From Schizochytrium sp. TIO01 (Eukaryota; Sar; Bigyra; Thraustochytrida; Thraustochytriidae), in assembly GCA_004764695.1 (NCBI GenBank), contig SMSO01000034.1:2178501-2242500 (forward strand): 64,000 nt of DNA. The letters run 5' to 3'. Within the stretch, counting starts at the first letter, position 1; each line of letters opens with the position of its first letter. Shown piece after piece: positions 33,515 through 56,513 of the stretch. Made by a program: the position numbers and the translations under genes. The notes below the pieces were generated by a model. That model had not been told where the DNA came from, searched no databases, and was given only the letters and a program-made list of their open reading frames with translations.

Positions 33515-35101
33515 TTGCACCCCGTGCAAAATTCTCGCAAGAACTGCAGTAGAGCTCTGCAATCGTCATTTGTCTTGGCCTCATCGATGGCAGATATTCC
33601 TCTTCGCTACCGGCGCCCTGCCCAGGCTCGCGAAGACGACCGGGGCCGTGTTCACGGCAATGCGCCAGCTCAAGAGTCTTGGTGGACATGGCTGGTTCGC
33701 CTTTTCCACCTCGTCGCGAGCTTCTTGGTTGAGTCCTGGCAAAGCGGGGTGAATTGGGTGTCTCGATGGCTAGAATCTCGACGGCAGGCGCAGCAGGAGT
33801 TAAGGGCGCAGCAGGAGCAGGAGCAGCAGGAGTTAAGGGCGCAGCAGGAGCAAGAGCAGCAGGAGCAAGCGCGAATGGAGCAAGAGCGGCAGGAAGAAAT
33901 CCAGGACCTGCAAAGACAAGTGGCGCGGCTGACACGGCAGCTTGAAGAGGAGAGGGAGCGGCACGCAAGAAATTTGTCAGAGCAAGAGATCCTTTCTGAG
34001 CGGCGGCTCCAAGATGGGCGGGACGAGTTAGAGGAGAACAGGCGGCAGCTTGCAAATGACAAGGATGCTTGGCACAGGGAGAAACAGAGGGACATGCAGA
34101 AATGGGCCGAGGAAAGAAACGAGTGGTTGAAAGAACTAGAGGAGTGGCGAAAAGAAAAGGAGAAGAAGCAAGAGGAGTGGGATGCAAAGCTACAGGAGTG
34201 GAACACAGAAAGAGAGAAGCTGGAGAAGCAAATTTGCAACGAGCGAGACGATTTTGAAGTGCAGCGTCAACATTATCAAATAAGAGATGCAGAATATCAA
34301 GGGCAGGTACAACAGCTTCAGAACCAATATCGGAACCTAGATCTGCGTTGGCAAGAGAAAGAAAACGAATGGAGAGCTCAGGAACAACAGCACCGGGCAG
34401 AACAGGAACAGTGGCAAAGGGAAAGGAATACATGGCAAGAGAAGGTAAACGGATTGCAAGAGCAGCTGCAAGAGCAGCAACGAACACACCGAGAAGAGAA
34501 GAATCAGTGGGAAAACTTAAAGACTGTTTTGGAAAACCAGCGGGCAGAGGAGAGGCGGCAAAAGGAAGAGTGGGAAAACAAGCATGCAGCTTTACTGAGG
34601 GTGCAGCAACAGCAGGACAGAAATTACAAGTCCAAGCAGGAGGAATGGAAGGCCAAAAAAGAAGAGCTGAAAAAGCAGTTGAAAGACCAGCAAGATCACC
34701 ATAACCAAGAAAAGCAGCAATGGCAAAGCGCCAAAGAAGCTTTACTGAAACTGCAGCAAGACCAGCAAGATCACCACAAGCGAGAACAGGAGCAATGGCA
34801 AAGCGCCAAAAAAGCTTTACTGAAACTGCAGCAAGACCAGCAAGATCACCACAAGCGAGAACAAGAGCAATGGCAAACCGACAAGCAAGCTTTAGAAAAG
34901 CAGCTGCACGACCTACAAGAATTGCACAATCATGAAAAGTCAGAATGGGAAGCTGAAAAAGAAGCCTTGAAACAGCATCACGTAAAGCAGCAAGATGAAC
35001 ACCAGCAACAACAGCAGCAATGGCAAACCGACAAACAAGCTTTAGATCTCCTTCTCTTACCGCTGCTGCCGCTTTTTGCGATGTTCGTGTTCCTTGTCTA
35101 A
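33515..35101 (+). CDS. Coiled-coil family member 2, N-terminal part, ending in an inverted segment
   Basis: A 528-aa frame. After a basic start (a second Met at 33587 gives MADIPLRYRR) comes the family's Trp-rich hydrophobic segment (ESWWTWLVRLFHLVASFLVESW). A long Gln/Glu/Lys coiled coil with regular EEW, EQW and QQW heptads follows. At 35048 the sequence switches to an inverted copy of coiled-coil DNA, so the last 18 residues (LLLLPLLPLFAMFVFLV) are the antisense translation of that copy. The frame then hits TAA. In the same frame the coiled coil resumes at 35339 and runs to 37354. The original gene was therefore probably one frame from 33515 to 37354. A cytoskeletal or scaffold role is likely from structure only. 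Confidence 0.7.
   Translation: MHPVQNSRKNCSRALQSSFVLASSMADIPLRYRRPAQAREDDRGRVHGNAPAQESWWTWLVRLFHLVASFLVESWQSGVNWVSRWLESRRQAQQELRAQQEQEQQELRAQQEQEQQEQARMEQERQEEIQDLQRQVARLTRQLEEERERHARNLSEQEILSERRLQDGRDELEENRRQLANDKDAWHREKQRDMQKWAEERNEWLKELEEWRKEKEKKQEEWDAKLQEWNTEREKLEKQICNERDDFEVQRQHYQIRDAEYQGQVQQLQNQYRNLDLRWQEKENEWRAQEQQHRAEQEQWQRERNTWQEKVNGLQEQLQEQQRTHREEKNQWENLKTVLENQRAEERRQKEEWENKHAALLRVQQQQDRNYKSKQEEWKAKKEELKKQLKDQQDHHNQEKQQWQSAKEALLKLQQDQQDHHKREQEQWQSAKKALLKLQQDQQDHHKREQEQWQTDKQALEKQLHDLQELHNHEKSEWEAEKEALKQHHVKQQDEHQQQQQQWQTDKQALDLLLLPLLPLFAMFVFLV
34122..34815 (+). repeat. Direct repeat, copy A (pairs with 35334-36027)
   Basis: About 695 bases repeated at an offset of exactly 1212 bases (a multiple of 3) with only about four mismatches visible by eye. 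Both copies encode the same coiled-coil block. Confidence 0.9.
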
Positions 35102-35333
35102 GTCATCCTCCTTATCTTGCAACTCCTGCAACTCCTGCAGCTTCTGCTGGTGCTGTTGTTGCTGTTGTTGCTGCTGTTTATGCAATTCTTCTTCTCTAAT
35201 TTGCCATTTGGAATTTTCACGATTGTGCTGTTCTTGCTGTTCTTGCTGCTGCTGTTGCAAACCTGCTTTTTCGGTTTGCCATTCGGACTTTTCACGATTG
35301 TGCAATTCTTGTAGGTCGTGCAGCTGCTTTTCT
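35048..35333 (-). repeat. Inverted copy of coiled-coil coding sequence
   Basis: Read on the minus strand, this segment encodes coiled coil closely matching the region around 36650-36925, including the unit DKEDDLDKEHEHRKKRQQR. It sits exactly between the two direct repeats and carries TAA where the other copy has CAA. Confidence 0.88.
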
Positions 35334-36027
35334 AGTGGTTGAAAGAACTAGAGGAGTGGCGAAAAGAAAAGGAGAAGAAGCAAGAGGAGTGGGATGCAAA
35401 GCTACAGGAGTGGAACACAGAAAGAGAGAAGCTGGAGAAGCAAATTTGCAACGAGCGAAACGAGTTTGAAGTGCAGCGTCAACATTATCAAATAAGAGAT
35501 GCAGAATATCAAGGGCAGGTACAACAGCTTCAGAACCAATATCGGAACCTAGATCTGCGTTGGCAAGAGAAAGAAAACGAATGGAGAGCTCAGGAACAAC
35601 AGCACCGGGCAGAACAGGAACAGTGGCAAAGGGAAAGGAATGCATGGCAAGAGAAGGTAAACGGATTGCAAGAGCAGCTGCAAGAGCAGCAACGAACACA
35701 CCGAGAAGAGAAGGATCAGTGGGAAAACTTAAAGACTGTTTTGGAAAACCAGCGGGCAGAGGAGAGGCGGCAAAAGGAAGAGTGGGAAAACAAGCATGCA
35801 GCTTTACTGAGGGTGCAGCAACAGCAGGACAGAAATTACAAGTCCAAGCAGGAGGAATGGAAGGCCAAAAAAGAAGAGCTGAAAAAGCAGTTGAAAGACC
35901 AGCAAGATCACCATAACCAAGAAAAGCAGCAATGGCAAAGCGCCAAAGAAGCTTTACTGAAACTGCAGCAAGACCAGCAAGATCACCACAAGCGAGAACA
36001 GGAGCAATGGCAAAGCGCCAAAGAAGC
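35334..36027 (+). repeat. Direct repeat, copy B (pairs with 34122-34815)
   Basis: Second copy of the 695-base direct repeat. It begins at the right edge of the inverted segment. Near-identity implies a very recent event or an assembly artefact. Confidence 0.9.
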
Positions 36028-37354
36028 TTTAGAAAAGCAGCTGCACGACCTACAAGAACAGCACGACCGAGAAAAGCAGCAATGGCAAACCGAGAAATCA
36101 AATTTACAAAAGCAGCTGCAAGACCAGAAGCAAAAATTGCAAGAACAAGATAAAGCATTTTTTGAAAAAGAGGGACAGTGGCTAGTAGATAAAGGAAAGC
36201 TACAAAGAAACGTTGCAGCTCTACAGAATCAAGTGGCAGAATGGCAGGAGAAAGAAGCGGCCTGGCAAAAGAAGCAGCGAGACCAGCAACAACAGCACCA
36301 GCAACAGCAGCAGCAATGGCAAACCGACAAACAAGCTTTAGAAAAGCAGCTGCACGACCTACAAGAATTGCACAATCATGAAAAGTCCGAATGGGAAGCT
36401 GAAAAAGAAGCCTTGAAACAGCAACACGTAAAGCAGCAAGATGAACACCAGCAACAACAGCAGCAATGGCAAACCGACAAACAAGCTTTAGAAAAGCAGC
36501 TGCACGACCTACAAGAATTGCACAATCGTGAAAAGTCAGAATGGGAAGCTGAAAAAGAAGACTTGGAACTGCAACACATAACGCAGCAAGATGAACACCA
36601 GCAACAACACCAGCAACAACACCAGCAATGGCAAACCGACAAACAAGCTTTAGAAAATCAGCTGCACGACCTACAAGAATTGCACAATCGTGAAAAGTCC
36701 AAATGGGAAGCTGAAAAAGAAGCCTTGAAACAGCAACACGTAAAGCAGCAAGATGAACACCAGCAACAACAGCAGCAATGGCAAATTAGAGAAGACGAAT
36801 TGCATAAACAGCAGCAACAACAGCGAGAACAGCACCAGCAGAAGCTGCAGGAGTTGCAAGATAAGGAGGATGACTTAGACAAGGAACACGAACATCGCAA
36901 AAAGCGGCAGCAGCGGCAAGAGAAGGAGATGGGTTGGTTGAAGAAAGACGTCGACTGGCACAAAAGAGAAGTAGATCGGGAACGCCGAAATTATAAACAG
37001 GAGCTGCAAGACAAAGAGAGAGAACTACAAGACAAAGAAGCATTATGGAAAAAGAAAGAAGCAATGCGGCAACAGGAGGAGGAACGTCAGCAGTGGGAAA
37101 AAGAGAGAGCAGAATGGAAGAAGAAAGAAGAAGACTGGAAGAAGATAGAAGAAGAGTGGAAGAAGAAAGAAGAAGACTGGAACAAGAAAGAAGCAGACCT
37201 TAGTAAACAAGATGAATCACAATACCCTGAGAACGAGTCTTTAACACAGAGTTCGGATGAGGAGCAATATCCAAATAGAAGCCCTAGCAACAGCCCTGGT
37301 GCCACTGGCGCCACTGGCGCCAGAGCTAAAAATAAAAAAGGACGACGTGGATAA
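35339..37354 (+). CDS. Coiled-coil family member 2, C-terminal part (separated by rearrangement)
   Basis: A 671-codon frame in the same phase as the preceding ORF, without its own ATG near the left end and without a promoter. Its first 230 residues duplicate residues 203-433 of the upstream ORF. It then continues as a Gln-rich coiled coil with repeated blocks (DKQALEKQLHDLQELHN) at about 45-50 residue spacing, and ends in Lys/Glu helices with a WKKKEEDW rhythm. The C-terminal tail is Ser/Pro-rich and finishes with GATGATGARAKNKKGRRG. There is no adaptor motif at this C-terminus, unlike members 4 and 5. If the 1212-base insertion were absent, both parts would form one protein. Confidence 0.65.
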   Translation: MKELEEWRKEKEKKQEEWDAKLQEWNTEREKLEKQICNERNEFEVQRQHYQIRDAEYQGQVQQLQNQYRNLDLRWQEKENEWRAQEQQHRAEQEQWQRERNAWQEKVNGLQEQLQEQQRTHREEKDQWENLKTVLENQRAEERRQKEEWENKHAALLRVQQQQDRNYKSKQEEWKAKKEELKKQLKDQQDHHNQEKQQWQSAKEALLKLQQDQQDHHKREQEQWQSAKEALEKQLHDLQEQHDREKQQWQTEKSNLQKQLQDQKQKLQEQDKAFFEKEGQWLVDKGKLQRNVAALQNQVAEWQEKEAAWQKKQRDQQQQHQQQQQQWQTDKQALEKQLHDLQELHNHEKSEWEAEKEALKQQHVKQQDEHQQQQQQWQTDKQALEKQLHDLQELHNREKSEWEAEKEDLELQHITQQDEHQQQHQQQHQQWQTDKQALENQLHDLQELHNREKSKWEAEKEALKQQHVKQQDEHQQQQQQWQIREDELHKQQQQQREQHQQKLQELQDKEDDLDKEHEHRKKRQQRQEKEMGWLKKDVDWHKREVDRERRNYKQELQDKERELQDKEALWKKKEAMRQQEEERQQWEKERAEWKKKEEDWKKIEEEWKKKEEDWNKKEADLSKQDESQYPENESLTQSSDEEQYPNRSPSNSPGATGATGARAKNKKGRRG

Positions 37355-39527: not shown

Positions 39528-41330
39528 TTGAGAAAAAAGCTCAGTATAGGCTTCCAAGCTCGTGCTCTCTCGAAACAACAGACGATTCCTGCTTTAGCTT
39601 GTGCGCAAGCAATGTGTTCGAACTCTCGCGAGACGCTCCGCAACCAAGGCTCGGCAGGTGAACCGGAAGGCGAGCCGATAGACCAGCAAGAACAAGGAAA
39701 AGAACAAGGAAAAGAACAAGAACGAGAACAAGAACAAGGAAAAGAACAAGGAAAAGAACAAGAACGAGAACGAGAACAAGAACGAGAACGGGGACACCAC
39801 TCTGGACAGGAACTCGGGCAACAGCCAGAAAGCGAGCTAGCGCCAGAGCAAAGCTCTTGGTGGAGATCGCTCGTTTGCCTTTACCATGCCCTTGTCGCAG
39901 CGCTGGTGATTGCGATCCATGGTGCAGTGCAACGACTTCCCGACTGGCCTCCTGCGAAACAGCGAAAGCTGCAGGCGCAACTGGAAGAGCAAGAAGAACG
40001 ATGGAAAGAGCGGCTGGCGCAACATGAGAAGGAAGCCGAGGCGCAGCGCGGAGACGCTCTGCAGAAGGCGCAGGGAGGCTGGCAAGAGAAAGAGGAAGAA
40101 CTGAAAGCGCAGCTAGGTGATCTTCAGCGGCAACATGCTGAGTTGCAAGGAGCAGAAGCATCACTGAGAAAGGAGCTCCATGACCGGGAAGAATCTTGGC
40201 GAAAGACTGACACAAAGTCTCAACAAGAGATAGGAAAACACCAGCAGCAATTGCAGGATTTTCAAAGCAAAGTAGACTCGTTGAATAGCAAGTGTCAGCA
40301 GCAGCAAGGAGATCAGCAGAAGCTGCAAGATCATGCAAAAGAATTGGCAACGAATATAGAGGAAATGGAAGCCCGTGAAGCAGAACTGAACCGTCTCGTA
40401 GAAGATTGGGTCGAGAAAGGAAAAGAGTGGGACGAGAAAGTATCAGAATGGAACGGGTATCAAACGGATCTGATTGATCAACATCGGCAAGAGCAGGAGC
40501 AGTGGCGCAGCGAACTTGAACAATTGCAAAAGCAGCACGAACAAGAGAGGCAAGAGCAGCAAGAGCAGCACGAACAAGCGCAGGAGCAGTGGGAGGCCAA
40601 GGTAGTGACCCTAAAGGAGCAGTACGAACAAGAGAGGCACGAGCAACAAGAGCAGCACGAACAAGCACAGGAGCAGTGGCAAAGTAAAGTAGAGACACTA
40701 AAGGAGCAGCACAACCAAGAGAGGCAAGAGCAGCAAGATCAGCACGTGCAAGATAAACAGCAGTGGCAAGCCAAAGTAGATACATTAAAGGAGCAGCAAA
40801 AAGAGCAGAAGGAGCAGCACCTCCAAGATAAACAGGAGTGGCAAGAGAAAGTAGTTCAGTTGCGCGAGCAGCAACGAGAGCAGCTCGAGCAGCAGTGCAA
40901 AGAAAAGGAGGAGTGGCAAGAGAAGGTAGCGGAGCTGCGAGAGCAGCAACGGCAACAGCTGGAGGAGCATCGACAAGAGTCGCTGCAGTGGCGAGAAAAA
41001 GAAGCAGAGTTGCAGCAGCAGCTGCTGCAGCAGCAAGAACGACAGCAGCAGAAGAAGAAAGATATCGAGTGGCAAAAGAAAGAAACAGCATGGCAAAAGA
41101 CAGAAGTTGCACGACAGAGGCAAGAAGCAGAACAGAAACGTCGGCATGAACAACAGCAACTGCAAGCAACCATAGAAGAATTGCGAGAACAGCAACAACA
41201 GCAACAACAGCAACACCGGCGAGAGCAGCTGCAGTGGCAAGAGAGAGAGACCAACTGGGAACAGCAGCAATACCAGCACCAGCAGCAGCTGCAGCAGTGG
41301 CAAGATAGAGAAAAAGAGTTCAAAGACCAG

Positions 41331-41363
<33 letters not shown>

Positions 41364-41750
41364 ATGAAAGAGTTAGAGTGGCAGAAGAAAAAAACCGATT
41401 TTCATAAGAAGGAAGTGGAACGACACAAAATAGAAGCAGAACGACAACAGCAGAAACAACAGCAAGAGTGGCAAGGAAAACTAGCAAGACTGCGAAAGGA
41501 ACAGCACGAACAGCAACAAAAATACACGCAGGAACAGAACAAGCTGCAAGAGATGGTAGGCGAATTGCAAAAGCAACGTCAAGAGCAGCAGGAGAGTAGG
41601 AAACCTAAAAAGACAGAACGGGGAAAGAAAGCAAACCAACAACAACTAACCCAATCAGCGTCTGCCCGTGCACCAAAGGGTAAGCTCCAGACTATAAGGT
41701 CGTTTTCCTCAAGTGATGAATCCACCTCTGGCCTAGAAGCAAAGCATTAG
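39528..41750 (+). CDS. Coiled-coil family member 3
   Basis: A 740-aa protein with the family plan. The N-terminus includes a low-complexity run of Glu-Gln-Gly-Lys units (about residues 55-85, encoded by short DNA repeats at 39690-39790). The Trp-rich hydrophobic segment is SSWWRSLVCLYHALVAALVIA (about residues 105-125). From there to about residue 690 the chain is a Gln/Glu/Arg coiled coil with blocks such as QEQWQSKVETLKEQHNQER recurring about every 30 residues. The tail is basic and Ser-rich and has no adaptor motif. It is probably anchored to a membrane by the hydrophobic segment with the rod exposed. The initiating Met could be the one at 39528 or a later one (AMCSNSRE). Confidence 0.78.
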
Positions 41751-44871: not shown

Positions 44872-46944
44872 TCACCGTTTGATATATTGCTTATTTCCAT
44901 TGCTGTTGATGAAATACTCTCCACCACGAGGACCGGTATGGATCTCTCGGCTGTTTCCAGTCCCAGCGCTAGCTTTGTTACTGGGACTGGGGTACGATGG
45001 CGACTGTGTTGGTGTCACAGGAGCAGGCTGAGGTGAAGACTTACGTAGATACTGCTTGTTTCCACTGCTATTGTAATAATACTCTCCACCAAGAGGACCG
45101 GTATGGATCTCTCGGCTGTTTCCAGTCCCAGCGCTAGCTTTGTTAATGGGACTGGGGTACGATGGCGACTGTGTTGGTGTCACAGGAGCAGGCTGAGGAG
45201 AAGACTTACGTAGATACTGCTTGTTTCCACTGCTATTGTAATAATACTCTCCACCAAGAGGACCGGTATGGATCTCTCGGCTGTTTCCAGTCCCAGCGCT
45301 AGCTTTGTTAATGGGACTGGAGTACGAGGGCGACTGTGTTGGTGTCACAGGAGCAGGCTGAGGTGAAGACTTACGTAGATACTGCTTGTTTCCGTTGCTG
45401 TTGATGTAATACTCTCCACCAAGAGGACCGGTATGGATCTCTCGGCTGTTTCCAGTCCCAGCGCTAGCTTTGTTAATGGGACTGGAGTACGAGGGCGACT
45501 GTGTTGGTGTCACAGGAGCAGGCTGAGGTGAAGACTTACGTAGATACTGCTTGTTTCCATTGCTGTTGATGTAATACTCTCCACCAAGAGGACCGGTATG
45601 GATCTCTCGGCTGTTTCCAGTCCCAGCGCTAGCTTTGTTAATGGGACTGGAGTACGAGGGCGACTGTGTTGGTGTCACAGGAGCAGGCTGAGGTGAAGAC
45701 TTACGTAGATACTGCTTGTTTCCATTGCTGTTGATGTAATACTCTCCACCAAGAGGACCGGTATGGATCTCTCGGCTCTTTGCACCGGTGCCAGTACTGT
45801 AATCACAAGCAAAAGTTTCTATGGAATAATGGAAAGAAAGTGGTTCTACATCTGATGGCGATGAAGATAATTGGCGCCTCATTTGTGAACGTGCTGGCGA
45901 GCGCAATACCGGTGACTTAAATTCAGGTTCATTTGACTCATGTGGTTCATCTTTAGGCACTAGTTCCTGTGAAAGCTTGTGTACTTCTTGTTCCCTCTTT
46001 GTTCTTTCCTCTTGCAGATCTTTTTTCTGCTGGGTTTGTTGCTGCTGCCACTTTGCTTTTTCCTCTTGCAGATCTTTTTTCTGCTGGCTGAGTTGCTGCT
46101 GCCACTTTGTTTTTTCCTCTTGCAGATCTTTTTTCTGCTGGGTTTGTTGCTGCTGCCACTTTGCTTTTTCCTCTTGCAGATCTTTTTTCTGCTGGCTGAG
46201 TTGCTGCTGCCACTTTGTTTTTTCCTCTTGCAGATCTTTTTTCTGCTGGGTTTGTTGCTTCTGCCACTTTGCTTTTTCCTCTTGCAGATCTTTTTTCTGC
46301 TGGCTGAGTTGCTGCTGCCACTTTGTTTTTTCCGCTTGTAGTTCTTTTTTCTGCTGGCTGAGTTGCTGCTGCCACTTTGTCTTTTCCTCTTGCAACAACT
46401 GCTTTTCCTGCTGCAGATCGTCGTTCTGCTGGCTTTGTTGCTTCTGCAACTTTATCTTTTCGAATTGCAGCAGCTGCCTCTGCTGTTCTAGCGGAGGGAT
46501 TAGTCTACGTTCCATCCGTCGTTCTTTTTCTTCCCTTTGCAACTCTTGCTTTTCGTGATCGAGTCGAATCTGCTGCCGTTCAATTTCCATTAGGCATTCA
46601 TTCGTTTTGTCTTCCAACTCCTTCTGTTTGCTTTGTCGCTGTTGCATGTCTGTCTCTTTTCCTTCAAGCGCCAGTCTTTCAAGCTGGAGTTCTTGCAGTT
46701 GCTGCTGATACCATTCATGTTGTTTTGCAAACAGCCACTGAGAAAGCTGTCGTAATATCCAATGATACGCGCCTGACCAAATTAAAACAAAAGCGTGAAG
46801 AGTGTCAACAAGAAATGCCCACCACGCACTGCGCTCTTCTAATGCTGCGCTATTATCTGAAGTATGTTCTTGCTTTTGGTTCTGTTGATGTTGATATCCT
46901 AATTCTCTCCTGTGCCCCTTCTGCTTAAGTATGGTGTAACGCAT
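44872..46944 (-). CDS. Coiled-coil family member 4 with six C-terminal PBCV-type basic adaptor motifs
   Basis: A 690-aa protein. The N-terminal 36 residues are polar. The Trp-rich hydrophobic segment is SAWWAFLVDTLHAFVLIWSG (about 39-58). A Gln/Lys/Glu coiled coil runs to about residue 330. Its second half is built from 18-residue units (KxKWQQQLSQQKKDLQEE). After a Ser/Pro hinge, six near-identical 55-residue units follow, each SREIHTGPLGGEYY-(I/Y)NS-x-GNKQYLRKSS plus a Pro/Ser linker. The core closely matches the PBCV-specific basic adaptor domain (Pfam PBCV_basic_adap), known mainly from chlorella-virus proteins. The last unit (GPRGGEYF) lacks the linker. The probable role is a membrane-anchored rod presenting multiple basic adaptors; binding partner unknown. 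Confidence 0.85.
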   Translation of the reverse strand: MRYTILKQKGHRRELGYQHQQNQKQEHTSDNSAALEERSAWWAFLVDTLHAFVLIWSGAYHWILRQLSQWLFAKQHEWYQQQLQELQLERLALEGKETDMQQRQSKQKELEDKTNECLMEIERQQIRLDHEKQELQREEKERRMERRLIPPLEQQRQLLQFEKIKLQKQQSQQNDDLQQEKQLLQEEKTKWQQQLSQQKKELQAEKTKWQQQLSQQKKDLQEEKAKWQKQQTQQKKDLQEEKTKWQQQLSQQKKDLQEEKAKWQQQQTQQKKDLQEEKTKWQQQLSQQKKDLQEEKAKWQQQQTQQKKDLQEERTKREQEVHKLSQELVPKDEPHESNEPEFKSPVLRSPARSQMRRQLSSSPSDVEPLSFHYSIETFACDYSTGTGAKSREIHTGPLGGEYYINSNGNKQYLRKSSPQPAPVTPTQSPSYSSPINKASAGTGNSREIHTGPLGGEYYINSNGNKQYLRKSSPQPAPVTPTQSPSYSSPINKASAGTGNSREIHTGPLGGEYYINSNGNKQYLRKSSPQPAPVTPTQSPSYSSPINKASAGTGNSREIHTGPLGGEYYYNSSGNKQYLRKSSPQPAPVTPTQSPSYPSPINKASAGTGNSREIHTGPLGGEYYYNSSGNKQYLRKSSPQPAPVTPTQSPSYPSPSNKASAGTGNSREIHTGPRGGEYFINSNGNKQYIKR
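44876..45783 (-). repeat. Six tandem 165-base units encoding adaptor motifs
   Basis: The exact period is 165 bases: matching positions at 44917, 45082, 45247, 45412, 45577 and 45742. Internal units differ at only a few bases, so the array is young or homogenised by conversion. Confidence 0.95.
45997..46390 (-). repeat. 54-base tandem repeats encoding coiled-coil units, with 108-base higher order
   Basis: Units of 54 bases (18 residues) alternate between two types, QQLSQQKK and QQQTQQKK, giving a 108-base super-period. About seven units are visible. Confidence 0.9.
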
Positions 46945-47245
46945 CGTTCCTTTAAAACTCGACGTGAGGTTTGTCTGTTTTCAATGGGAGCGTAAGCCTG
47001 GATGCGCCTTGCCGAAGCTGAGGCACTCGAATGAGCTTTGTTTTGATTTCTCGTGTTTACAACTAAGGCGGCGCGCCCTTTACAAGTACGTGGCTTGGAA
47101 CGCAAGCTCCTGATCTGATTCAGATCTGCTGTCGTCAAAGACGTCTATCTGCTTAACCTTGGGCAGACTAAATAGTCAATTCCGAGAGAAAGTCAATTCT
47201 TCTTTGTAGCATATTTTGTGAGGAGCTCGATTGGTATATTAGATA

Positions 47246-47279
47246 ATCCAAGAAAGCGCTCCCAGGACTGAAGTCCATA
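47246..47279 (-). promoter_or_regulatory. Shared upstream element, copy 5
   Basis: On the minus strand it reads ATGGACTTCAGTCCTG and then GGAGCGCTTTCTTGGAT. It is about 300 bases before the start of member 4 and in the same orientation as that gene. Confidence 0.6.
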
Positions 47280-47339
47280 ATCGTTAGTTCAATATTAGTT
47301 GAACCTAGCATCATAGTGGATCTAGGAGCACTCCTTCAA

Positions 47340-47341
<2 letters not shown>

Positions 47342-47371
<30 letters not shown>
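47342..47371. repeat. Poly(T) run of 30 bases
   Basis: Homopolymer directly downstream (on the plus strand) of the element copy. It could be a promoter dA:dT tract or the trace of a retroposed poly(A) tail. Confidence 0.9.
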
Positions 47372-47378
<7 letters not shown>

Positions 47379-48006
47379 ATAAAAGTTTGCTTGTTTCCTT
47401 CTGTTAAAAGGCTGTGTTGGTTTCTTTCCTTTCGGAACAAGAATTCTACCACAAAGTCAAAGCAAACATATCTCAATTTGGTGAAAAGAAAAAAATGCAA
47501 TGAAAAAATTAGAAAAGAAGGGGGGGAGTTAATTTTAATTAAAATTATAAAATAAACAATCAAGTTTAAAATCAATATCACAAATCCAATATCATTCGTT
47601 AGAGAGTTTGAGATGGTTTCAGTCCGTCATATTGAATGAACCCGGCAAGTACATTGTTAATATAAGACTAAGCTTGGTGCAGATGGAGAGTACTTCTGGC
47701 GCACTTCAAATAGCTTGTAATACCTTTTCATCACTCAATTTTATCTGAGCAAACAATTTCAAATATATTGAAAAATCTGGTTTACAGAATCTGGCAGGGT
47801 GTCAGAAAAGTCAAATTATATATCATTTATCTCACTAAAGAGGAGGAACAGCCGTGTCATTTTGCATTTGATAGTTGTATTACTGTTGCATATGCCTATT
47901 GTGTATCAAAGAACAAATTGGCATTCAAATATCTTAGTTTGAAGCTACCTAAGTTAATGCTTGTAAGAGTAAAGGTGTATTCCCATGGTATTACGTTTTG
48001 CTCCAT

Positions 48007-50151
48007 TTACTCTTTGGGCTTGGGCTGGTACTGCTTCTTTCCACTGCTGTTGATATAATATGTCCCGCCACGTGGTCCAGTGAAGATTTCCCGGCTGTTG
48101 CCAGACGTTGTATTACTATCACTGGCGAACAATTGTGATCGAGGCGGGGTCACAGGAGCAGGCTCAGGTGAAGACTTGCGTAAATACTGCTTGTTTCCAC
48201 TGCTGTTGATGTAATACTCTCCACCACGAGGACCAGTATGGATCTCTCGGCTGTTTCCAGTCCCAGCACTAGCTTTGTTACTGGGACTGGCGAACAATTG
48301 CGATCGAGGCGGAGTTACAAGTGCAGGCTCAGGTGAAGACTTGCGTAAATACTGCTTGTATTCACTGCTGTTGATGAAATAGTCTCCACTACGAGGACCG
48401 GTATGGGTCTCTCGATTGCGAGCAGTGGCGCCAGTACTGCTTCCAGAACTAGAGCTGTCAGTACTACCATCCAATGAATATGACTCACCAAATAATGATG
48501 ACGTCCTTTTGCTCTGTTGTGGCATGGGCTGTGGCACGTACGATCCAAAGTACACCTCAGAGGCAGGTGAAAACAAATTATTGTACTTCATACTACCGCT
48601 GAAGTTGAACTGATCTGATCCATAAGGTGATCCAAAATTAAAACCTGGCTTCTCCTGACTATAAACATTATCACCAAAGCTAATGCCGAGGCCTGACAGG
48701 CTGGATGCAGTATTATGGGATCCTTGCGATTTATTCAGCATTTTCAGTGATTCATTATATCTTCTTTGCAACTGATCCTCTTTTTCATGCCACTCCTTCT
48801 CTTTCTCTTGCCACTCAACCTCTTGTTCATGCCAGACAATTTTTTCCTTCTCCCACTTCATTCTTTCCTCTAGGAGGCATTCCCTTTCCTTGTCTAGCTC
48901 CTTATACAGTTTGCTTTTTTCTTGATGCAATTTGTCATCGAGAAGCTGCCATTCTCCCTGTAAGAGTTCCTCTAATTGGCTTTGCTGCTGCAGCCACTTT
49001 GTCTTTTCCTCTTGAAACAACTGTTTCTCCTGCTGAAAATCGTCTTTCTGCTGGCTTAGTTGCTGCTGCCACTTTGCTTTTTCCTCTTGCAACAACTTTT
49101 TTTCCTGCTGCAAATCGTCTTTCTGCTGGCTAAGTTTCTGCTGCCACTTTGTCTTTTCCTCTTGCAACAGCTGTTTTTTCTGCTGCAAATCGTCTTTCTG
49201 CTGGCTTAGTTGCTGCTGCCACTTTGCTTTTTCCTGTTCCAGATTTTTTTTCTGTTCGGTTTGTTGCTGCTGCCATTGTACCTTTTCCTCTTGCAACAAC
49301 TGTTTTTCCTGCTGCAGGTCTTCTATCTGTCGGATTTGATGCTGCCACTTTGTCTTTTCCTCTTGCAACAACTGTTTTTCCTGCTGCAAATTGTCTTTCT
49401 GCTGGCTTAGTTGCTGCTGCCACTCTGTCTTTTCTTTTTCCCACTGTTGCTTTACCTGCGCCTGCCTTTCCTGCTGTTGTCTAAGTTGCTCCATTGAAAG
49501 TTTCGTATTGGCATGCAAGTCCTCCCGTTGCTGACTGAGCTTCTCCAGGTCTTGGTTTCTTTGCCTTTCCCAGGTTGTCGCGTATTCTTCGAACTGGAGC
49601 TGCATTACCACTTGCTGGCTGCTCTGCTGCTGAAGGTCTTCCTCTTGTTGAGCTAAACGTCGCTTCCATAGTTTCTCTTGCTCCCTAAGTTGCCGTTCGA
49701 AACGCTCCTGGTCCAGTTCCTTCTGTTGCCTTAGTCGCCTTTCCAATTGCTCTACTTGCAACTGCAACTCCTGCTGGAGCAGATCATCTTCTTGCTGCTG
49801 CTCTTTTTGTTGCTGTCTTTGCTCGTGCTGGCCCGGTTGGTGTTGCTGTTTGGGAGATAGCCAATGGTGTAGCCGTCGTGATCTCTCATGCAAGGCGCCC
49901 AGCAAGATTGAAATTAAAGCGACCAAAATCCACCCGACGCCTTGCTTTAACGCTAGCTCGTTTGATGGATTTTGAGGTTCTTCAGGTTCTTCAGATTGTT
50001 CGTGGGACGGCTCATCGTACGTTCCCTTATCGCCCGGGTCGTCCCCGTTTTTTGGTTCGTGCTCATGCTCGACATCCGGTTCTTCCTCATCACCCTGCTC
50101 GTATTCCGGGAGCAGCGCCTCGGCCATCATGCAATTCAACGAAGACTTCAA
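48007..50151 (-). CDS. Coiled-coil family member 5 with three C-terminal PBCV-type basic adaptor motifs
   Basis: A 714-aa protein. A strongly acidic N-terminus (about residues 12-65) is followed by a hydrophobic segment (GVGWILVALISILLGAL, about 74-90). A long coiled coil runs to about residue 480, and its middle is made of 25-residue units (KTKWQQQLSQQKDDLQQEKQ). A Ser/Gly/Phe-rich, probably disordered linker follows. Three adaptor motifs close the protein: HTGPRSGDYFINSSEYKQYL, HTGPRGGEYYINSSGNKQYL and a final one with FTGPRGGTYYINSSGKKQY. These keep the GPRGG-YYIN core better than member 4. Starts at 50151 or 50130 (MMAEALL) are both possible. The gene points away from the TIR gene across a 1-kb divergent spacer that holds an element copy for each. 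Confidence 0.86.
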   Translation of the reverse strand: MKSSLNCMMAEALLPEYEQGDEEEPDVEHEHEPKNGDDPGDKGTYDEPSHEQSEEPEEPQNPSNELALKQGVGWILVALISILLGALHERSRRLHHWLSPKQQHQPGQHEQRQQQKEQQQEDDLLQQELQLQVEQLERRLRQQKELDQERFERQLREQEKLWKRRLAQQEEDLQQQSSQQVVMQLQFEEYATTWERQRNQDLEKLSQQREDLHANTKLSMEQLRQQQERQAQVKQQWEKEKTEWQQQLSQQKDNLQQEKQLLQEEKTKWQHQIRQIEDLQQEKQLLQEEKVQWQQQQTEQKKNLEQEKAKWQQQLSQQKDDLQQKKQLLQEEKTKWQQKLSQQKDDLQQEKKLLQEEKAKWQQQLSQQKDDFQQEKQLFQEEKTKWLQQQSQLEELLQGEWQLLDDKLHQEKSKLYKELDKERECLLEERMKWEKEKIVWHEQEVEWQEKEKEWHEKEDQLQRRYNESLKMLNKSQGSHNTASSLSGLGISFGDNVYSQEKPGFNFGSPYGSDQFNFSGSMKYNNLFSPASEVYFGSYVPQPMPQQSKRTSSLFGESYSLDGSTDSSSSGSSTGATARNRETHTGPRSGDYFINSSEYKQYLRKSSPEPALVTPPRSQLFASPSNKASAGTGNSREIHTGPRGGEYYINSSGNKQYLRKSSPEPAPVTPPRSQLFASDSNTTSGNSREIFTGPRGGTYYINSSGKKQYQPKPKE
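48015..48420 (-). repeat. Three tandem adaptor-motif units
   Basis: Three diverged copies of the adaptor-coding unit. Copies one and two share the linker KSSPEPA-VTPPRSQLFAS. They are less homogeneous than the six-copy array. Confidence 0.88.
48985..49430 (-). repeat. 75-base tandem repeats encoding coiled-coil units
   Basis: Units of about 75 bases (25 residues, core QQLSQQKDDLQQEKQLLQEE) recur about six times with partial deletions. This is a related but longer unit than the 54-base array in member 4. Confidence 0.85.
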
Positions 50152-50438
50152 CTGTAGTCCTTGTGGACGTGCGCTGCGAGGCCGTGCCGAGGCAAAGCAG
50201 AACTTTGTTCGAGGCGAGCTTTGTCAACAACGAGGGAAGGAGGGCCACGCATATGCATTTGCCATCGATCCAGGTTTGCAGGTATTGTCTTGACCGATTT
50301 AAGACCTTCAAGCGCGGCCTTTTTACTACTGCCGTGCGCGTTGCGCTTGCCCAGTTGGACTAAGTGAACTCGGCGTGGATTAAGTGAACCTGGCGTAGTC
50401 CAAGAGTTGAAATGGTCCAACTGATAGGAATAGTGTTT

Positions 50439-50471
50439 GTCCAAGAAAGCGCTCCCAACCTTGAGATCCAG
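50439..50471 (-). promoter_or_regulatory. Shared upstream element, copy 6
   Basis: The minus strand reads CTGGATCTCAAGGTTG, then GGAGCGCTTTCTTGGAC, close to the consensus. The second box (TATCAGTTGGACCATTTCAA) follows about 15 bases later, at about 50404-50424. It lies about 290 bases before member 5. Confidence 0.7.
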
Positions 50472-50988
50472 GTATCAACTTCCTAATTTTAATTTCATAA
50501 TTTTAATTCCATAACAAGGTAGAACATTTCTTTTTTCTCTTCTCATTGAGAAGAAGCGCCTTTTTTTATTCAATAAAAAGAGAATCAACTTTAAAAAACA
50601 AAACAAAACAATTTTTATTTTTATTTTTTAAAAATAATAAAATGTTACACATAATTTGAATATATCTATATAGGCCGTTTCCCTCGTTTTGTTTCTTTTC
50701 TTTTTTCATATGATAATAATGATATCGAATAATAAAACATAAAAAGAATAACAAGATCGCAGTTGCAAACATGAGCACGCTTAAATGAGATTAGATTACT
50801 GAATTAAAACATGCACGCACGACTTGGCTTGAAGAGGAGTTAGCAAAGAGTTTGCGAAGGATCCATAATTCCGAGTTGACTGTTTGACATTGTTCATTGA
50901 AAGCGCAATGAACCTTGTGACAAATATAGAGGCTTAATTTGTTGAATCTTGGACAGCACGATACTATGTTTATATTGATCAAGTTGTA

Positions 50989-51022
50989 CTGGATTTCAAC
51001 CATGAGAGCGTTCTGCTGGATT
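50989..51022 (+). promoter_or_regulatory. Shared upstream element, copy 7, upstream of the TIR gene
   Basis: Reads CTGGATTTCAACCATG and then AGAGCGTTCTGCTGGAT. It lies 135 bases before the first ATG of the TIR gene and about 315 before its better-context ATG. The gene behind it is unrelated to the coiled-coil family. Confidence 0.6.
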
Positions 51023-51156
51023 GCCTATCTTCGTGTAGGCTGCTATGCAAGTCCAATTTCGCAAGTCCGGGGACTCCATATGAACTAATGACAAGCAAGT
51101 CGCAAGGCTGAAAGTTGCACATGGCTGACAGCAATCCCATATCATAGAGACAAGCG

Positions 51157-54021
51157 TTGCGCAAGTCAGAAACCCTCACAGCGATGTGGACCTTTTCACG
51201 AGAAAGACACGTGGGTATGCCTCCAAGAACAGTGCGATGCATGCAAAACGCAAGAATGCCTCCGACGGGCCTTTTCCCGGGATGTGTAGAAGAGATGTTC
51301 TTCGGTTTCGACGAATCGCCATTCGGTTTCAACACCATGGAGGCTGCTAGAATTGAAGCTTTGCAGAAACGACAAGAAGCAAAGGAGCTTCGAAAGATGC
51401 TCGTCATTGCGTGTAAGGAAGGTGATCTGAAGCTGGCCAAGCGCTGTATCTGTAACGGAGCAAGTGAAAACTCCCAAGATCGGGAGGGTAAAACTGCCCT
51501 GATGTGGGCATCTCAGAGTGGAAACTTGGAGCTCGTTAAGTTTCTTGTGAACTCAGGAGCACAGGTAAATGCAAGAACGAAAACTGGCGGAGGCACAGCG
51601 CTAATGTGGGCATGCGAATTTGGCCATATTTCCATTGCTAAGCTCTTGATTAAATGCGGCGCCGACGTGAACCTAGGAATGCACATCAACGCAACTCCTC
51701 TTATAATGGCCAGCCAGTCTGGGTGCATTGATGCTATTACTTGCTTAATCAAACACGGAGCAAACATCAATGTGCAAGAGATGGGTGGTGGAAGGAGTGC
51801 GCTCATGCTCGCATGCTCCCATGGCTATTTTGAGGTTGTAAATATACTCTTAAAACACAGAGCAGAGGTAAACCTCCAAGACAAAAGGGGATTTACTGCA
51901 CTATGGCATGCATGCATGTCAAATGTTTTGGATATAGTGACGCTGCTACTCCAGAACAACGCGAACTTATGCTTGCGTGACCAATATGGAAGGCAATTGC
52001 ATGAAGTGCAGTCGAACAAGAACCCCAATTCTCCTATTACAAAGCTTCTCCTATTTATCAGAGGTAGTATTGTGTCCGACTTTCTTTTGAAGCAACTCAA
52101 GCTCTCACAGCGTGTACCAGTTGCCTTCTATCAGCAGCATGTGCTTACTGTTAAAGATTGTGAGCGCCTTGATCACGAGGATTTACAAACTCTTGGAGTT
52201 AAATCCATGAAGGACCGTCTCGCCTTCTTGCGAAGATTCAATCCTACGAGTGAGGCTGCTCAAACGAAGAGTTTCTCTACTACGACGAGTGGGTCGGAGG
52301 AAAACGTATCGACTTACACGCCAGGCACAACTCTAGTCGCAGTCAAGACCTTCTCTGGCGAGCTAAACGTCACAAAGGGTACTCGTCTACGAGCATTGAA
52401 AAGGAGCGATGACAATTGGATCATCGCTGAGATCGAAGCCAGCAAGCAAAGAGGCATGATTCCTGTAAGCTATGTTGTCACCGAAGAAGAGTTTGCAAAT
52501 GATAGTGAAAACCAAGACAAAGTTGGACACAGTGATCAAAGTGATGCACGTAATTCCACAGGAGAGCGTAGCGATGATGACTGTGAAAGTGACGAGGAAG
52601 GAAAGGGCAATGATTTCCTGGATTTTCTTCACTTTCTTGACAGCGAAGAAGACAGCGAAGAAGACAGCGAAGATGAGGATGAAGAAGAATTCTATTATGA
52701 AGATGAGCAAGAAGAAGAGGAGGAGGAGGAGGAGGAGGAGGAAGAAGAAGAGGAAGAAGAAGAAGGAGAAGACAGCGAATACGATGAAACAGAAAACAAT
52801 GAAGTAGATAAAGTAGAAAATAAGGATATAGAGCATGGTCTAGAGAATGAAGATCTTGATTCAGACAACTCCAGCCAAGAGGAAGAAGAGGAAGAGGGAA
52901 AGAATGAATGCGACGATGACGATGGAAAACCCAAGAACAAATCAAAAGAGGCAGGAAAGCTGTTTACCGACACTGAAAAGAGCAGCACTTCCCAGGCTTC
53001 AAAGTTGAAAGTCTCCACTAGCTTTCGCATTCCGTCGGCCCCAAAAGAAAGGCCGTCTCAAACAAGTTCCGAATCATCCGTGGACCGCTGTTCAAGTATG
53101 TCAGGTTTAGCAACAACAGGTTTCGGATTTGGCGAGACTTCATCGCTACCGGCAGCAGACAAAATTTCGCCCCCTTCAGAAAATCCTTTTATTGAGTTTT
53201 CCACGTCTTCGAACAAACAATCACCAAATCCTGGTCCAGAATGTCCTCGCGTTTGGTCGTCAGAGGGTCCGCTCCGTAATATTCCAGATTTCGACTTTGG
53301 CGTTAAATTTTCTTGCCCATCATCGCGTCTTGGTGGCGATTCTGCGCAGGCAAAGGCACGCCAACCTTCTACAAGTGGAGGATTTCGAGTTGGCAAGGCT
53401 AGGCGACGATTGTACTTGGGAGTCCGTACAAGACAGAGTAACGACAAAGCGCCTTCACCATTCTCACCGGAGCATTCTCCGTTTACATCTGAAACACCGC
53501 CTTGTAGGCCCAACACAAAGGCTAACCAAGGTGCCGAAAGCAGTGACAAGAATTTTGATGTGTTCTTATCCCATGCTTGGGGAGAGGATGCAAAAACTCA
53601 CAAGCTTGTAAAACGTGTAAAGGACACGCTGGAAGAGAAACACTTAATTAGTTGTTGGTTCGACGAGGACCAGATTACCCATGGTGATGTAAAGCAAGCC
53701 ATGGCAGATGGAATTTCGAAAAGCAAGGCCAGTATTATTTTTGTGACACGGCAATACATGGAAAAAGTGAATATGAAACCAGGCTCTCAGGACAACTGCT
53801 GTCTTGAATTCAACTATATCACAAAGCGACATTCGGTTGCTATGATGATACCTGTGGTTCTTGAGTCTGAAATGAAAAACCAGAATCTATGGGACGGAGT
53901 CTTTGGCATGACTTGGGGCAGCCCACTCTATGTGGATATGACGAAAGGCGGTGAAGAAATTGAAGTCAGAAGACTTGTTACTATGATTCAAAACGTTCTT
54001 CAATCAGCTATTACTTGCTAG
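51157..54021 (+). CDS. Ankyrin-SAM-SH3-TIR multidomain protein
   Basis: A 954-aa signalling-type protein. Residues about 82-295 hold six to seven ankyrin repeats (GKTALMWASQSGNLELVKFL and similar). A SAM domain follows (about 300-362, ending SMKDRLAFLRRF), then an SH3-like fold (about 388-450, with DDNWIIAEI and GMIPVSYV). A very acidic tract with a long Glu run (about 485-620) and a Ser/Pro-rich linker lead to a C-terminal TIR domain (about 798-950). The TIR domain begins NFDVFLSHAWGED and has WFDEDQITHGDV, SIIFVTRQYM and CCLEF. Glu884 in CCLEF occupies the place of the catalytic glutamate of NADase TIR domains such as plant TIRs and SARM1. The ATG at 51337 (ACCATGG context) is an attractive alternative start. 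The protein is probably cytosolic. Innate immune or cell-death signalling is an inference from domain content. Confidence 0.92.
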   Translation: MRKSETLTAMWTFSRERHVGMPPRTVRCMQNARMPPTGLFPGCVEEMFFGFDESPFGFNTMEAARIEALQKRQEAKELRKMLVIACKEGDLKLAKRCICNGASENSQDREGKTALMWASQSGNLELVKFLVNSGAQVNARTKTGGGTALMWACEFGHISIAKLLIKCGADVNLGMHINATPLIMASQSGCIDAITCLIKHGANINVQEMGGGRSALMLACSHGYFEVVNILLKHRAEVNLQDKRGFTALWHACMSNVLDIVTLLLQNNANLCLRDQYGRQLHEVQSNKNPNSPITKLLLFIRGSIVSDFLLKQLKLSQRVPVAFYQQHVLTVKDCERLDHEDLQTLGVKSMKDRLAFLRRFNPTSEAAQTKSFSTTTSGSEENVSTYTPGTTLVAVKTFSGELNVTKGTRLRALKRSDDNWIIAEIEASKQRGMIPVSYVVTEEEFANDSENQDKVGHSDQSDARNSTGERSDDDCESDEEGKGNDFLDFLHFLDSEEDSEEDSEDEDEEEFYYEDEQEEEEEEEEEEEEEEEEEEGEDSEYDETENNEVDKVENKDIEHGLENEDLDSDNSSQEEEEEEGKNECDDDDGKPKNKSKEAGKLFTDTEKSSTSQASKLKVSTSFRIPSAPKERPSQTSSESSVDRCSSMSGLATTGFGFGETSSLPAADKISPPSENPFIEFSTSSNKQSPNPGPECPRVWSSEGPLRNIPDFDFGVKFSCPSSRLGGDSAQAKARQPSTSGGFRVGKARRRLYLGVRTRQSNDKAPSPFSPEHSPFTSETPPCRPNTKANQGAESSDKNFDVFLSHAWGEDAKTHKLVKRVKDTLEEKHLISCWFDEDQITHGDVKQAMADGISKSKASIIFVTRQYMEKVNMKPGSQDNCCLEFNYITKRHSVAMMIPVVLESEMKNQNLWDGVFGMTWGSPLYVDMTKGGEEIEVRRLVTMIQNVLQSAITC

Positions 54022-54198
54022 CGCAACATCCAATTTGGAGGTTCAGATGAAGGTTCAGATTGTAAATATATAAACAAAACTTCCGCATTCTGCTTTTCTT
54101 AAAATTTTCGGTATATAAAAAGTGACGGAGATAGGTGATGACATCACTGGACTAACTGTGCCTCTACAGAAAATAGATATTCGACGACTAGGCGCTCT

Positions 54199-54480
54199 CA
54201 CTAGACAGAGGTAAAGAGCTTAAATCTTTTAGATCCTGAAAATGGGCAAGCCAAAACAATCACTGATGACTACGCCTTTTGCAAGCGCGTGTCGAAGACT
54301 ACAAATCTTGATGACATGATCAAGGATGTTTGGTTTTCTCCAGATTTTATTTGCGAGGATCAAGAACTGGTATTCCATCCATAGCAGCTTGCAAATAAAC
54401 GGATACCCTTTGCCTCAAAGATTGCTACTGCGAAACCAAAAGCTTACCACGCCTTCAGAACAAAAGCTTTACAGAGTAAG
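54199..54480 (+). pseudogene. Degraded coding segment of unknown origin
   Basis: One frame reads as a plausible protein from about 54205 to a TAG near 54385 (DDYAFCKRVSKTTNLDDMIK, then DVWFSPDFICEDQELVFHP). It continues in the same frame after the stop (QLANKRIPFASKIATAKPKA) to 54480, where TGA ends it. There is no start codon. A good splice donor (AGAGTAAGTG) overlaps the end, so this might be an internal exon. The internal stop favours a relic. I do not recognise the family. Confidence 0.35.
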
Positions 54481-55500
54481 TGATATTTTTCATTCTTGGT
54501 TGAGCTGCAAAAAGTAGCATAGTACAAAATGAAATTAATTTTTTTTGTTTATTTTATTTGCTCCCAAAGTTTAAAATTTGTCTTTGTCGACTTACTCTGC
54601 GCGTGCCTTTGTAACCTTATTTCACGCTAGTCTTAGACATTGAGCTCCTGCAGAAATGGATTCGCAAAACCACAGTAGATTTTGAAAAAAATAAAATCTG
54701 TTTTTCCAATGATAAACCGTGTATATATAGACGTTTCGGACGGCGCGTGTCTTGATTGTGTAAAGTGCTGTTTTTGGCTTGCTTCTATGTAAATTGTTTG
54801 ATCGTCAACCCACACATAGACCGTCCCTCTGTAGCTAAATAAAGTGATAGACCTGTTGGCCATGGGCTAAACTCTGATCTTGCGTGTAATCAATATGCAT
54901 GAGTGAAGGGGTCCTCGGAAAGATCACTAACAGCATTATTTTATTAAAAATTTTGTTAACGAAAAAAGTAGACGCGTGCACGCGCTCCCTCATTTGGCAT
55001 AGACAGACTTGCTTCGAGTTCCCGGAAACCTTGCTTCAGGCGTTCTTTTACGCTAGAAGTTTACAACGGAGCCCTTGGTCCTGGAGAGTGTATACGCCAT
55101 TACGCCATAAACTGCATGGTCGATCGTGCTGCACACACTAGTCGTGGACACCATTGAAGCTTCAAAGTAGGGTAGAATCTACTAGTATTGCACTATACTT
55201 ATGTCTAAGCTAAAAGAGAATTGCATGTTTGGCTGTGTATGTAGCCGCCTATATAATTTTCTATTCACCTTCGAAAGACTGTATTGGTGTTCATAATCAG
55301 CCCAGATTTTACTCTAGTTCTTATTACTTGATAGATTTTAGTTTAGTTTTAAAAGTTTTTGTATCTAAATATGTATGTATTTCTTTTAATATACAAATAG
55401 TCTCTTCAAGTTCACCAAGCTCCTAAAGCAAAACCAAAACGCAAGGCATCCAACGCAGCGCTGTCTGTTTCAAGCACGGAAGTAAGGGGAGGCCGATTTC

Positions 55501-55530
55501 AGTCTCAACTTGAGAAGTAGCCCTCTCCAA
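55501..55530 (+). promoter_or_regulatory. Weak match to the shared upstream element, copy 8
   Basis: Reads AGTCTCAACTTGAGAAG and then TAGCCCTCTCC, resembling the TCTCAAaCTTGAGA core but with a gap. It lies only about 15 bases before the ATG of the adaptor-bearing gene. It may be chance. Confidence 0.3.
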
Positions 55531-55544
55531 AATAGCAAAAGACT

Positions 55545-56513
55545 ATGGGTAGCCACTACCAAGTAGCGACTCAGTTCATTGAGCATACTAATGAAGATCA
55601 GACAATTAAGAACAAATTGTTGAGTAAAGGTGTCCAGTACATCAAACAAAAGTTCATCACAGACTTGAAGGAGGTCAACGACTTAAGTAGTGTGGTAGTT
55701 GGTCTTTTTGAGTTTTTTTCAGGTCAAGAAGTCGACCTTGAAGTTTCCGTCGCTGGCCTTCTGGAACTCTTGGGGAATTCCGACATCTTAGACACTCTAA
55801 ATCTCCTGAGCTCTGCCGCCCCATTTGTGTCTGTGCTGACGTGGGCTGTCAACAAATCTTCGACTGCATGCTATACTAGTGGACAGTCTCAGAAACTGAT
55901 CGCAGCCTTAGGCCCATTATCTCAAGAGGAATATCACGATAAGTTTCTTGAAAAACTTTCTCGAGCTCTCCAAACTGTAGAGGATGAGAATAAATTGCCA
56001 CAAGCCAAAGAACAGTCAGCTCAACGCTCAACTGCTTTAGTGGAAGTGACCATGCAGGAAATCATGAAGTCTGTGGTTCAATTAGTCAAACTACAATTCC
56101 CTGGTAAGTTGGGTTTGAAGAAAAACCCTTCTTTCGCGAACAAGGTTATGCGATACATGAAGCTTTTTCTCTTTTCTGGAAGAAATGCGAGCGAGATAAA
56201 TCAGATCTCAGAAGAGTTGATAGCCTTGCTAGCATCACTACACTCACAGACTAGCATGCCACTGCTAGCAAGATTTGATTCGTTGTATGAAAAAATGATT
56301 TCAACTGCTAAAAAAGAAAAACTCCAACGTCTCGAAATGGTCCTGAAACTCCAAAAACTAGATGCTGAGAAAAAAGAATTAGAAATGCTCCTGGAAGCCC
56401 AAAAAGCAAAAGCTCTCGAAGGTGGAACATCCCACAATGGACGGCAAATATATATTGGTCCACGTGGTGGGAGGTATTATATAAATGGAAACGGAAATAG
56501 AACATACGTTTGA
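55545..56513 (+). CDS. Helical protein with a single C-terminal PBCV-type basic adaptor motif
   Basis: A 322-aa protein whose first 280 residues do not resemble the coiled-coil family. Most of the chain is predicted helical, with a hydrophobic stretch (LLSSAAPFVSVLTWAV, about 103-118). A Lys/Glu/Leu coiled coil (about 245-290) leads to the final 27 residues, GRQIYIGPRGGRYYINGNGN plus a short end. This is the best match in the window to the viral adaptor consensus (IYxGPRGGxYYIN). The N-terminal region is unrecognised; a bundle of helices with a hydrophobic helix is all that can be said. It is next to the TIR gene in the same orientation. Confidence 0.82.
   Translation: MGSHYQVATQFIEHTNEDQTIKNKLLSKGVQYIKQKFITDLKEVNDLSSVVVGLFEFFSGQEVDLEVSVAGLLELLGNSDILDTLNLLSSAAPFVSVLTWAVNKSSTACYTSGQSQKLIAALGPLSQEEYHDKFLEKLSRALQTVEDENKLPQAKEQSAQRSTALVEVTMQEIMKSVVQLVKLQFPGKLGLKKNPSFANKVMRYMKLFLFSGRNASEINQISEELIALLASLHSQTSMPLLARFDSLYEKMISTAKKEKLQRLEMVLKLQKLDAEKKELEMLLEAQKAKALEGGTSHNGRQIYIGPRGGRYYINGNGNRTYV

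Follow-up and report, generated by a model that had tools for sequence, protein, structure and literature searches.

The window analysed here, a stretch of 64,000 nucleotides from contig SMSO01000034.1 of the thraustochytrid Schizochytrium sp. TIO01 (positions 2,178,501 to 2,242,500; G+C content 45%, in a genome of 64 Mb), contains three open reading frames that end in copies of a motif of about 25 residues with the consensus G-P-x-G-G-x-Y-Y-I-N-x-x-G-N-K-x-Y. A six-frame scan of the whole 64-kb window with the pattern GP.[GS]G.[YF][YFVI] returned ten matches, all confined to these three frames in sets of six, three and one, versus 0 or 1 match per window in twenty mononucleotide shuffles, which bears out the count of ten copies ending three genes given by a first-pass annotation of this DNA. 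In each gene the stop codon lies 0 to 5 residues after the final copy. According to the list of open reading frames and hydropathy, gene 1 (690 residues, 44872-46944, minus strand) has a hydrophobic segment towards its N-terminus, followed by a long coiled coil rich in Q, E and K and by six mini-domains separated by S/P-rich linkers, the cores of copies 1 to 6 lying on the minus strand at 45706-45774, 45541-45609, 45376-45444, 45211-45279, 45046-45114 and 44881-44949. Gene 2 (48007-50151, minus strand; 714 residues from a TTG, with the first ATG at residue 8) repeats this layout with a hydrophobic segment at about residues 66-84, a Q/E/K-rich coiled coil and three mini-domains with S/P-rich linkers, whose cores are found on the same strand at 48346-48414 (copy 1, a degenerate one that reads GPRSGDYFINSSEYKQYL), 48181-48249 (copy 2) and 48025-48093 (copy 3). 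The final residues of gene 3 (322 residues, 55545-56513, plus strand) are a single copy of the mini-domain, with its core at 56442-56510 on the plus strand.

The Pfam profile PF08789 (PBCV_basic_adap), which has a curated cut-off of 20.4 bits, recognises gene 1 (84 bits, E 7.8e-24, six scored stretches) and gene 2 (41.9 bits, E 1.1e-10, two scored stretches), and leaves gene 3 just under the cut-off (17.2 bits, E 0.0059, one scored stretch). As the tail of gene 3 nevertheless aligns to six copies from genes 1 and 2 (E 8e-4 to 4e-3), it is to be considered a relative by motif and not a Pfam member. The window copies belong with the PF08789 mini-domain: the profile score places those of genes 1 and 2 there, and the likeness of its tail that of gene 3. 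The resemblance to the PBCV basic adaptor proposed in the first-pass annotation, which had suggested this very profile search, is thus upheld for two of the proteins and falls short of the threshold for the third. Its description of the carriers as long coiled-coil proteins of host type fits, by eye, genes 1 and 2, but not gene 3, which was modelled as a mostly helical protein and not as a long coiled coil. Gene 3 is probably a helical protein, as predicted by a two-sequence model with a mean predicted local distance difference test (pLDDT) score of 43 that is confident only around the motif tail. A protein from an MMETSP transcriptome (P0001) is 89% identical to gene 3 across its whole length in BLASTP, or 95% in a MAFFT alignment, and retains the motif, so that a close relative transcribes this gene.

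Outside the window, the genome carries the motif in unlinked genes as well. One of them, on contig C33 near 193 kb, encodes 327 residues with three motif copies, and another on C3 encodes 494 residues with one copy; both score above the PF08789 cut-off, and a homologue search found one close relative of the C33 gene (P0010). A pattern search of the whole genome gave 31 matches versus 19 in the reversed control, of which 9 fall in the window genes and 3 in the two true motif genes just named, the C33 gene accounting for two and the C3 gene for one. Among the remaining 19, two on C32 and C24 were discarded as chance matches on reading, and the other 17 were assessed on their printed letters alone. 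In the same genome, 5.8S sequences were located at four sites, three of which lie 9-11 kb into contigs 27-29. The most hydrophobic stretches of the five motif-bearing proteins of the genome start at residues 41, 66, 84, 135 and 74, and an obvious N-terminal signal peptide was seen in 0/5 of them by hydropathy, no dedicated predictor having been run.

The array of gene 1 is a tandem repeat at the DNA level. Copies 1-5 form 165-bp units with 91-99% identity, and unit 6 ends early at the stop codon, its 90 coding bases being 80-88% identical to the other units, a value that drops to 58-62% if the 75 bases past the last sense codon are counted. Moreover, the N-terminal module and coiled coil of gene 1 are also present in a frame without the motif (740 residues, 39528-41750, plus strand), with a local alignment score of 71 versus a shuffled maximum of 40, and gene 1 residues 11-110 find this frame as their sole other match in the genome at E <= 1 (E 3.3e-4). 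A further frame lacking the motif (528 residues, 33515-35101, plus strand) has the N-terminal module of 39528-41750 (score 66 versus a shuffled maximum of 43) and is probably another paralogue, whereas its direct comparison with gene 1 was not significant (38 versus 47). Gene 2 reaches 63 versus 57 with 39528-41750 and a borderline 53 versus 54 with gene 1 directly, and no match to local family members was found by local alignment for the frame at 31162-31917. These likenesses in sequence suggest a local family of membrane-segment and coiled-coil proteins with one member devoid of the motif and probably a second, and the motif tail was probably gained or lost inside this family. As a separate observation, 33515-37354 (plus strand) holds two coiled-coil frames that, to the eye, share long near-identical stretches; these would seem to be either a tandem duplication of internal origin or one gene divided by an intron or a change of frame. 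The first of the two terminates in an odd hydrophobic run.

How far the mini-domain extends beyond protists was addressed with a DNA pattern for GPxGGxYYIN, so that the resulting counts describe the YYIN form and not the prevalence of the domain. In prokaryote genomes at least 120 stretches matched, 80 of which were listed; 74 of these 80 carry titles of organisms that we take to be Bacteroidota, and the other 6 belong to Akkermansia (2), Lentisphaerae, Chloroflexi, Burkholderiales and Chloracidobacterium. The Chloroflexi label may be that of a contaminant, since a viral contig appears to encode the same protein. Of the proteins read from 154 loci (120 in genomes and 34 in viral contigs), 132 were distinct and complete from an ATG onward; 105 of them come from the genome loci and 27 from viral contigs, and PF08789 recognises 82 of these 132 at E <= 0.01. 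The typical bacterial carrier is a small, often export-like protein with one copy at its very C-terminus: the motif lies within 32 residues of the end in 103 of the 105 genome proteins, as in all 27 viral-contig proteins, and a single one of the 105 has several copies. At the strictest hydrophobicity threshold an export-like N-terminus was scored in 74 of the 105 genome proteins and in 94 of 540 control frames treated in the same way; at the loosest, the numbers were 101 of 105 and 340 of 540. A PF08789 profile search of two whole bacterial genomes gave no match, though both hold a match to the pattern, and this does not imply absence. The viral contigs are unclassified and bear no organism names; most are of phage-like size with a few above 100 kb, and they are probably phages. 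The domain is further present in metagenome kinases and, with weak scores, in chlorella viruses. Looser forms of the motif were also seen at or near the N-terminus of large viral-contig frames (L207:6925-8091, with a zeta-toxin domain; L164:355-3879, with a ParB-like phrog match; L209:3516-5324). Of the 132 tail carriers, 11 (e.g., L045, L070 and L123) also have another short motif, DGTPDxR, as do two of the ten proteins P0001-P0010 (P0006 and P0009), and the two mini-motifs may travel together. In L009:1532-2014 a sorting domain of the type IX secretion system (TIGR04183) stands upstream of the motif tail, an unusual arrangement for a domain normally placed at the protein end.

The motif looks like a true folded mini-domain of three short β-strands. 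AlphaFold2 modelling of 27 diverse copies gave a mean pLDDT of 80.6, rising to 87-89 at residues 11-30, with predicted strands at residues 8-10, 16-19 and 25-27. An independent sign of a fold comes from paired cysteines: 30 of the 132 carriers (e.g., L035, L054 and L119) have a cysteine at the GGx position, and 29 of these 30 have a second one in the form GGCYY-(14)-C, always with exactly 14 residues between the YY and the cysteine, the lone exception being a protein that stops after YYIN. Conversely, none of the 102 forms without this cysteine has another within 10-22 residues, and one has a cysteine nearer by. Sorted by shared upstream words, the 30 GGC proteins make up 26 groups unlike one another, though their domain may descend from few events. 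The cysteine pair is found in none of the ten window copies.

The first-pass annotation had regarded the domain as known mainly from phycodnaviruses and read its presence here as capture from, or by, giant viruses, while naming occurrence in unrelated cellular lineages as the observation that would speak against this. The motif has to a large extent proved to be widespread in that manner, as judged from the prokaryote stretches and the PF08789 matches among their proteins, and since the domain ends many small bacterial proteins, its presence alone is no sign of viral capture. In this regard, the window copies were compared over up to 25 residues with 108 bacterial proteins, 27 viral-contig proteins and 9 copies from P0004 and P0006-P0009, the metagenome proteins being sorted by eye and P0002, P0003 and P0005 placed with the bacterial ones. 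Among the matches listed, gene 1 copy 6 is identical at 21 of 25 residues to a protein of Ancylomarina (L108, Bacteroidota), and the nearest outside match of the gene 3 tail is P0002, a bacterial-looking metagenome protein (20 of 23 residues). The best bacterial match was higher than the best viral-contig match for five of the ten copies, equal for three and lower for two (14 versus 15 and 17 versus 19), a comparison tilted to the largest set because the sets are unequal in size; judged on these short alignments, the window copies resemble bacterial and viral-contig copies about equally. A tree of 25 columns, with 129 copies kept of 158 after removal of identical or incomplete ones, joined all gene 1 and gene 2 copies in their own clade (support 0.922) and grouped the gene 3 tail with P0002 (0.976), but with 25 residues and support >= 0.9 at only 14 of 126 internal nodes the direction of transfer cannot be read from it.

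A transfer of the arrays from, or to, phycodnavirus-like viruses appears very improbable. It would agree with two Foldseek matches named PBCV-specific basic adaptor in a viral library (rank 3, Virus NIOZ-UU159, E 0.2, probability 1.00; rank 7, PBCV IL3A, E 0.31, probability 0.99, with 54% identity to one of the window copies across 24 columns), both non-significant in a library in which no match reached E 0.001, and with the kinases bearing PF08789 among the metagenome matches, one of which surpasses every bacterial row on gene 2 copy 3 (18 versus 17 of 25). These points are opposed by the bacterial spread of the domain, by a bacterial best match at least as good as the viral-contig one for eight of the ten copies (with the unequal sets just given), by the pairing of the gene 3 tail with a bacterial-looking protein, by the separate clade of the gene 1 and 2 copies, and by the cellular families that Pfam recognises in neighbouring frames. 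In the 14 window frames scanned in Pfam no viral hallmark gene was found, the matches being to methyltransferases, kinesin, SAM/EF-hand, sulfatase and ankyrin/TIR families, with four frames left without a match. Scans of viral contigs for motif copies returned no named giant virus, and tblastn gave no match for gene 1 against phages or for P0002 against plasmids. A viral transfer of the window copies is therefore unsupported.

The interpretation that we favour, with somewhat less than even confidence, is that the mini-domain serves as a portable C-terminal binding tag for a polyanion such as nucleic acid, which is multivalent in this genome. Such a tag would hold its carrier onto a common ligand, for which a polyanion, e.g., nucleic acid, would be the likeliest candidate; the coiled coil would keep it at a distance from the membrane, and avidity would gain from the six-copy and three-copy arrays. 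Its occurrence in viruses, bacteria and protists would then reflect a tag moving easily between genomes and not specifically giant-virus capture. The proposal draws on the family membership of the copies, on the wide spread, C-terminal position and often export-like carriers of the domain, on its predicted fold with the cysteine pairing, on the local family with a motif-less member, on the basic character of the domain, with a mean net charge of +4.5 per 30 residues (range 0 to +9) in the 132 proteins and of +2 to +4 in the window copies, and on nucleases among the carriers, namely a staphylococcal-type nuclease (SNase) and an HNH nuclease among the 132 and the NS endonuclease P0005, whose domain score is under the cut-off. 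In the same line, the PBCV-1 kinases A278L and A282L, which are annotated with this domain, are reported to come with virion DNA (PMC3281028). Several observations weigh against this interpretation. The link to DNA concerns whole kinases and not the isolated domain, and nucleases are rare (2 of 132 scanned carriers plus P0005). The arginine of the GPR form is missing in 5 of the 6 gene 1 copies, whose charge is only +2 or +3; in the window, the copies of this gene rank with the least basic. Outside it, one copy of the genome has a net charge of 0. The hydrophobic segment of gene 1, at about residues 41-59, is weak (Kyte-Doolittle 1.26), no expression evidence turned up for genes 1 and 2, and no significantly related solved structure was found in the PDB by sequence or by fold. 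Finally, the bacterial carriers look exported, so that they may bind a surface polymer or a protein instead, and the start codon rule behind the counts of export-like N-termini is biased to hydrophobic starts, equally so in the controls.

Other functions can be envisaged for the same mini-sheet. The three-strand topology of the model, the S/P-rich linkers between copies and the two WW domains that Foldseek places at ranks 1 and 10 of its best matches, none of them significant, would all suit a protein-protein tag, in which conserved tyrosines of a WW-like sheet bind proline-rich or disordered peptides and the arrays of genes 1 and 2 build a cytosolic or membrane-tethered scaffold. We consider this rather unlikely, with a best PDB match of E 1.8, no WW family recognised by Pfam in the three window proteins and a positive charge that such binding leaves unexplained. 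A tag attaching its carrier to an extracellular polymer, as possibly in the Bacteroidota proteins, would account for the export-like bacterial carriers and for a disulphide-like cysteine pair suited to oxidising compartments, and it would require the protist proteins to be displayed or secreted; the lack of obvious signal peptides by hydropathy in the five motif proteins of the genome and of the cysteine pair in the ten window copies make it an unlikely explanation here. Returning to the polyanion tag, a more specific version, in which the protist arrays on membrane-tethered coiled coils would act as a device that tethers or captures a possibly foreign polyanion, nucleic acid or other, next to an ankyrin-SAM-SH3-TIR gene of immune-like appearance, the tag being general to bacteria, phages, giant viruses and protists, is in our opinion improbable.

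The domain is already known, and the window adds new carriers whose architecture is unusual. Genes 1 and 2 share with the PBCV-1 kinases A278L and A282L the PF08789 domain by profile, the presence of several copies and the fusion to other modules, but Pfam finds no kinase domain in the three window proteins, which are membrane-segment and coiled-coil proteins plus a helical one from a cellular eukaryote, with no virus context seen. Similarly, the metagenome kinases P0004, P0007 and P0008 have a C-terminal PF08789 above the cut-off as in genes 1 and 2, four copies by pattern in the case of P0004, with a kinase domain in place of the membrane segment and long coiled coil. The small Bacteroidota proteins of export-like type that close with GPxGGxYYINxNGNKTY, many of which match PF08789, have the same motif at the extreme C-terminus and differ from genes 1 and 2 in that the copy is usually single, the protein is export-like and the upstream part mostly has no recognised family; the bacterial-type combination of a signal peptide and a single C-terminal copy was seen in none of genes 1-3, as far as hydropathy shows the signal. 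Two families without assigned role, phrog_2459 (function unknown) and NCBIfam NF007464 (hypothetical protein), have C-terminal ends that match the gene 2 tail, with 40.1 bits for NF007464, far under its cut-off of 168, the tail alone being matched. It follows that the "PBCV-specific" of the Pfam name is misleading for a domain that ends many small proteins of bacteria and also forms part of coiled-coil proteins in a eukaryote, and that the presence of PF08789 should not be read as viral capture. The paired cysteines and a natural six-copy array offer two handles on the fold and ligand of the domain.

Other genes of the window deserve mention. Among the motif genes lies a 954-residue frame (51157-54021, plus strand) with ankyrin repeats, weak matches to SAM and SH3, a run of acidic residues and, at the C-terminus, a TIR domain, in which a C-x-x-E presumably resembles the catalytic site of TIR NADases. 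Two adjoining methyltransferases (3038-4261 and 5076-6413, plus strand) each carry a Rv2258c-like winged helix-turn-helix domain, and a frame at 8164-9192 (minus strand) combines DUF1244 with a molybdopterin-binding domain.

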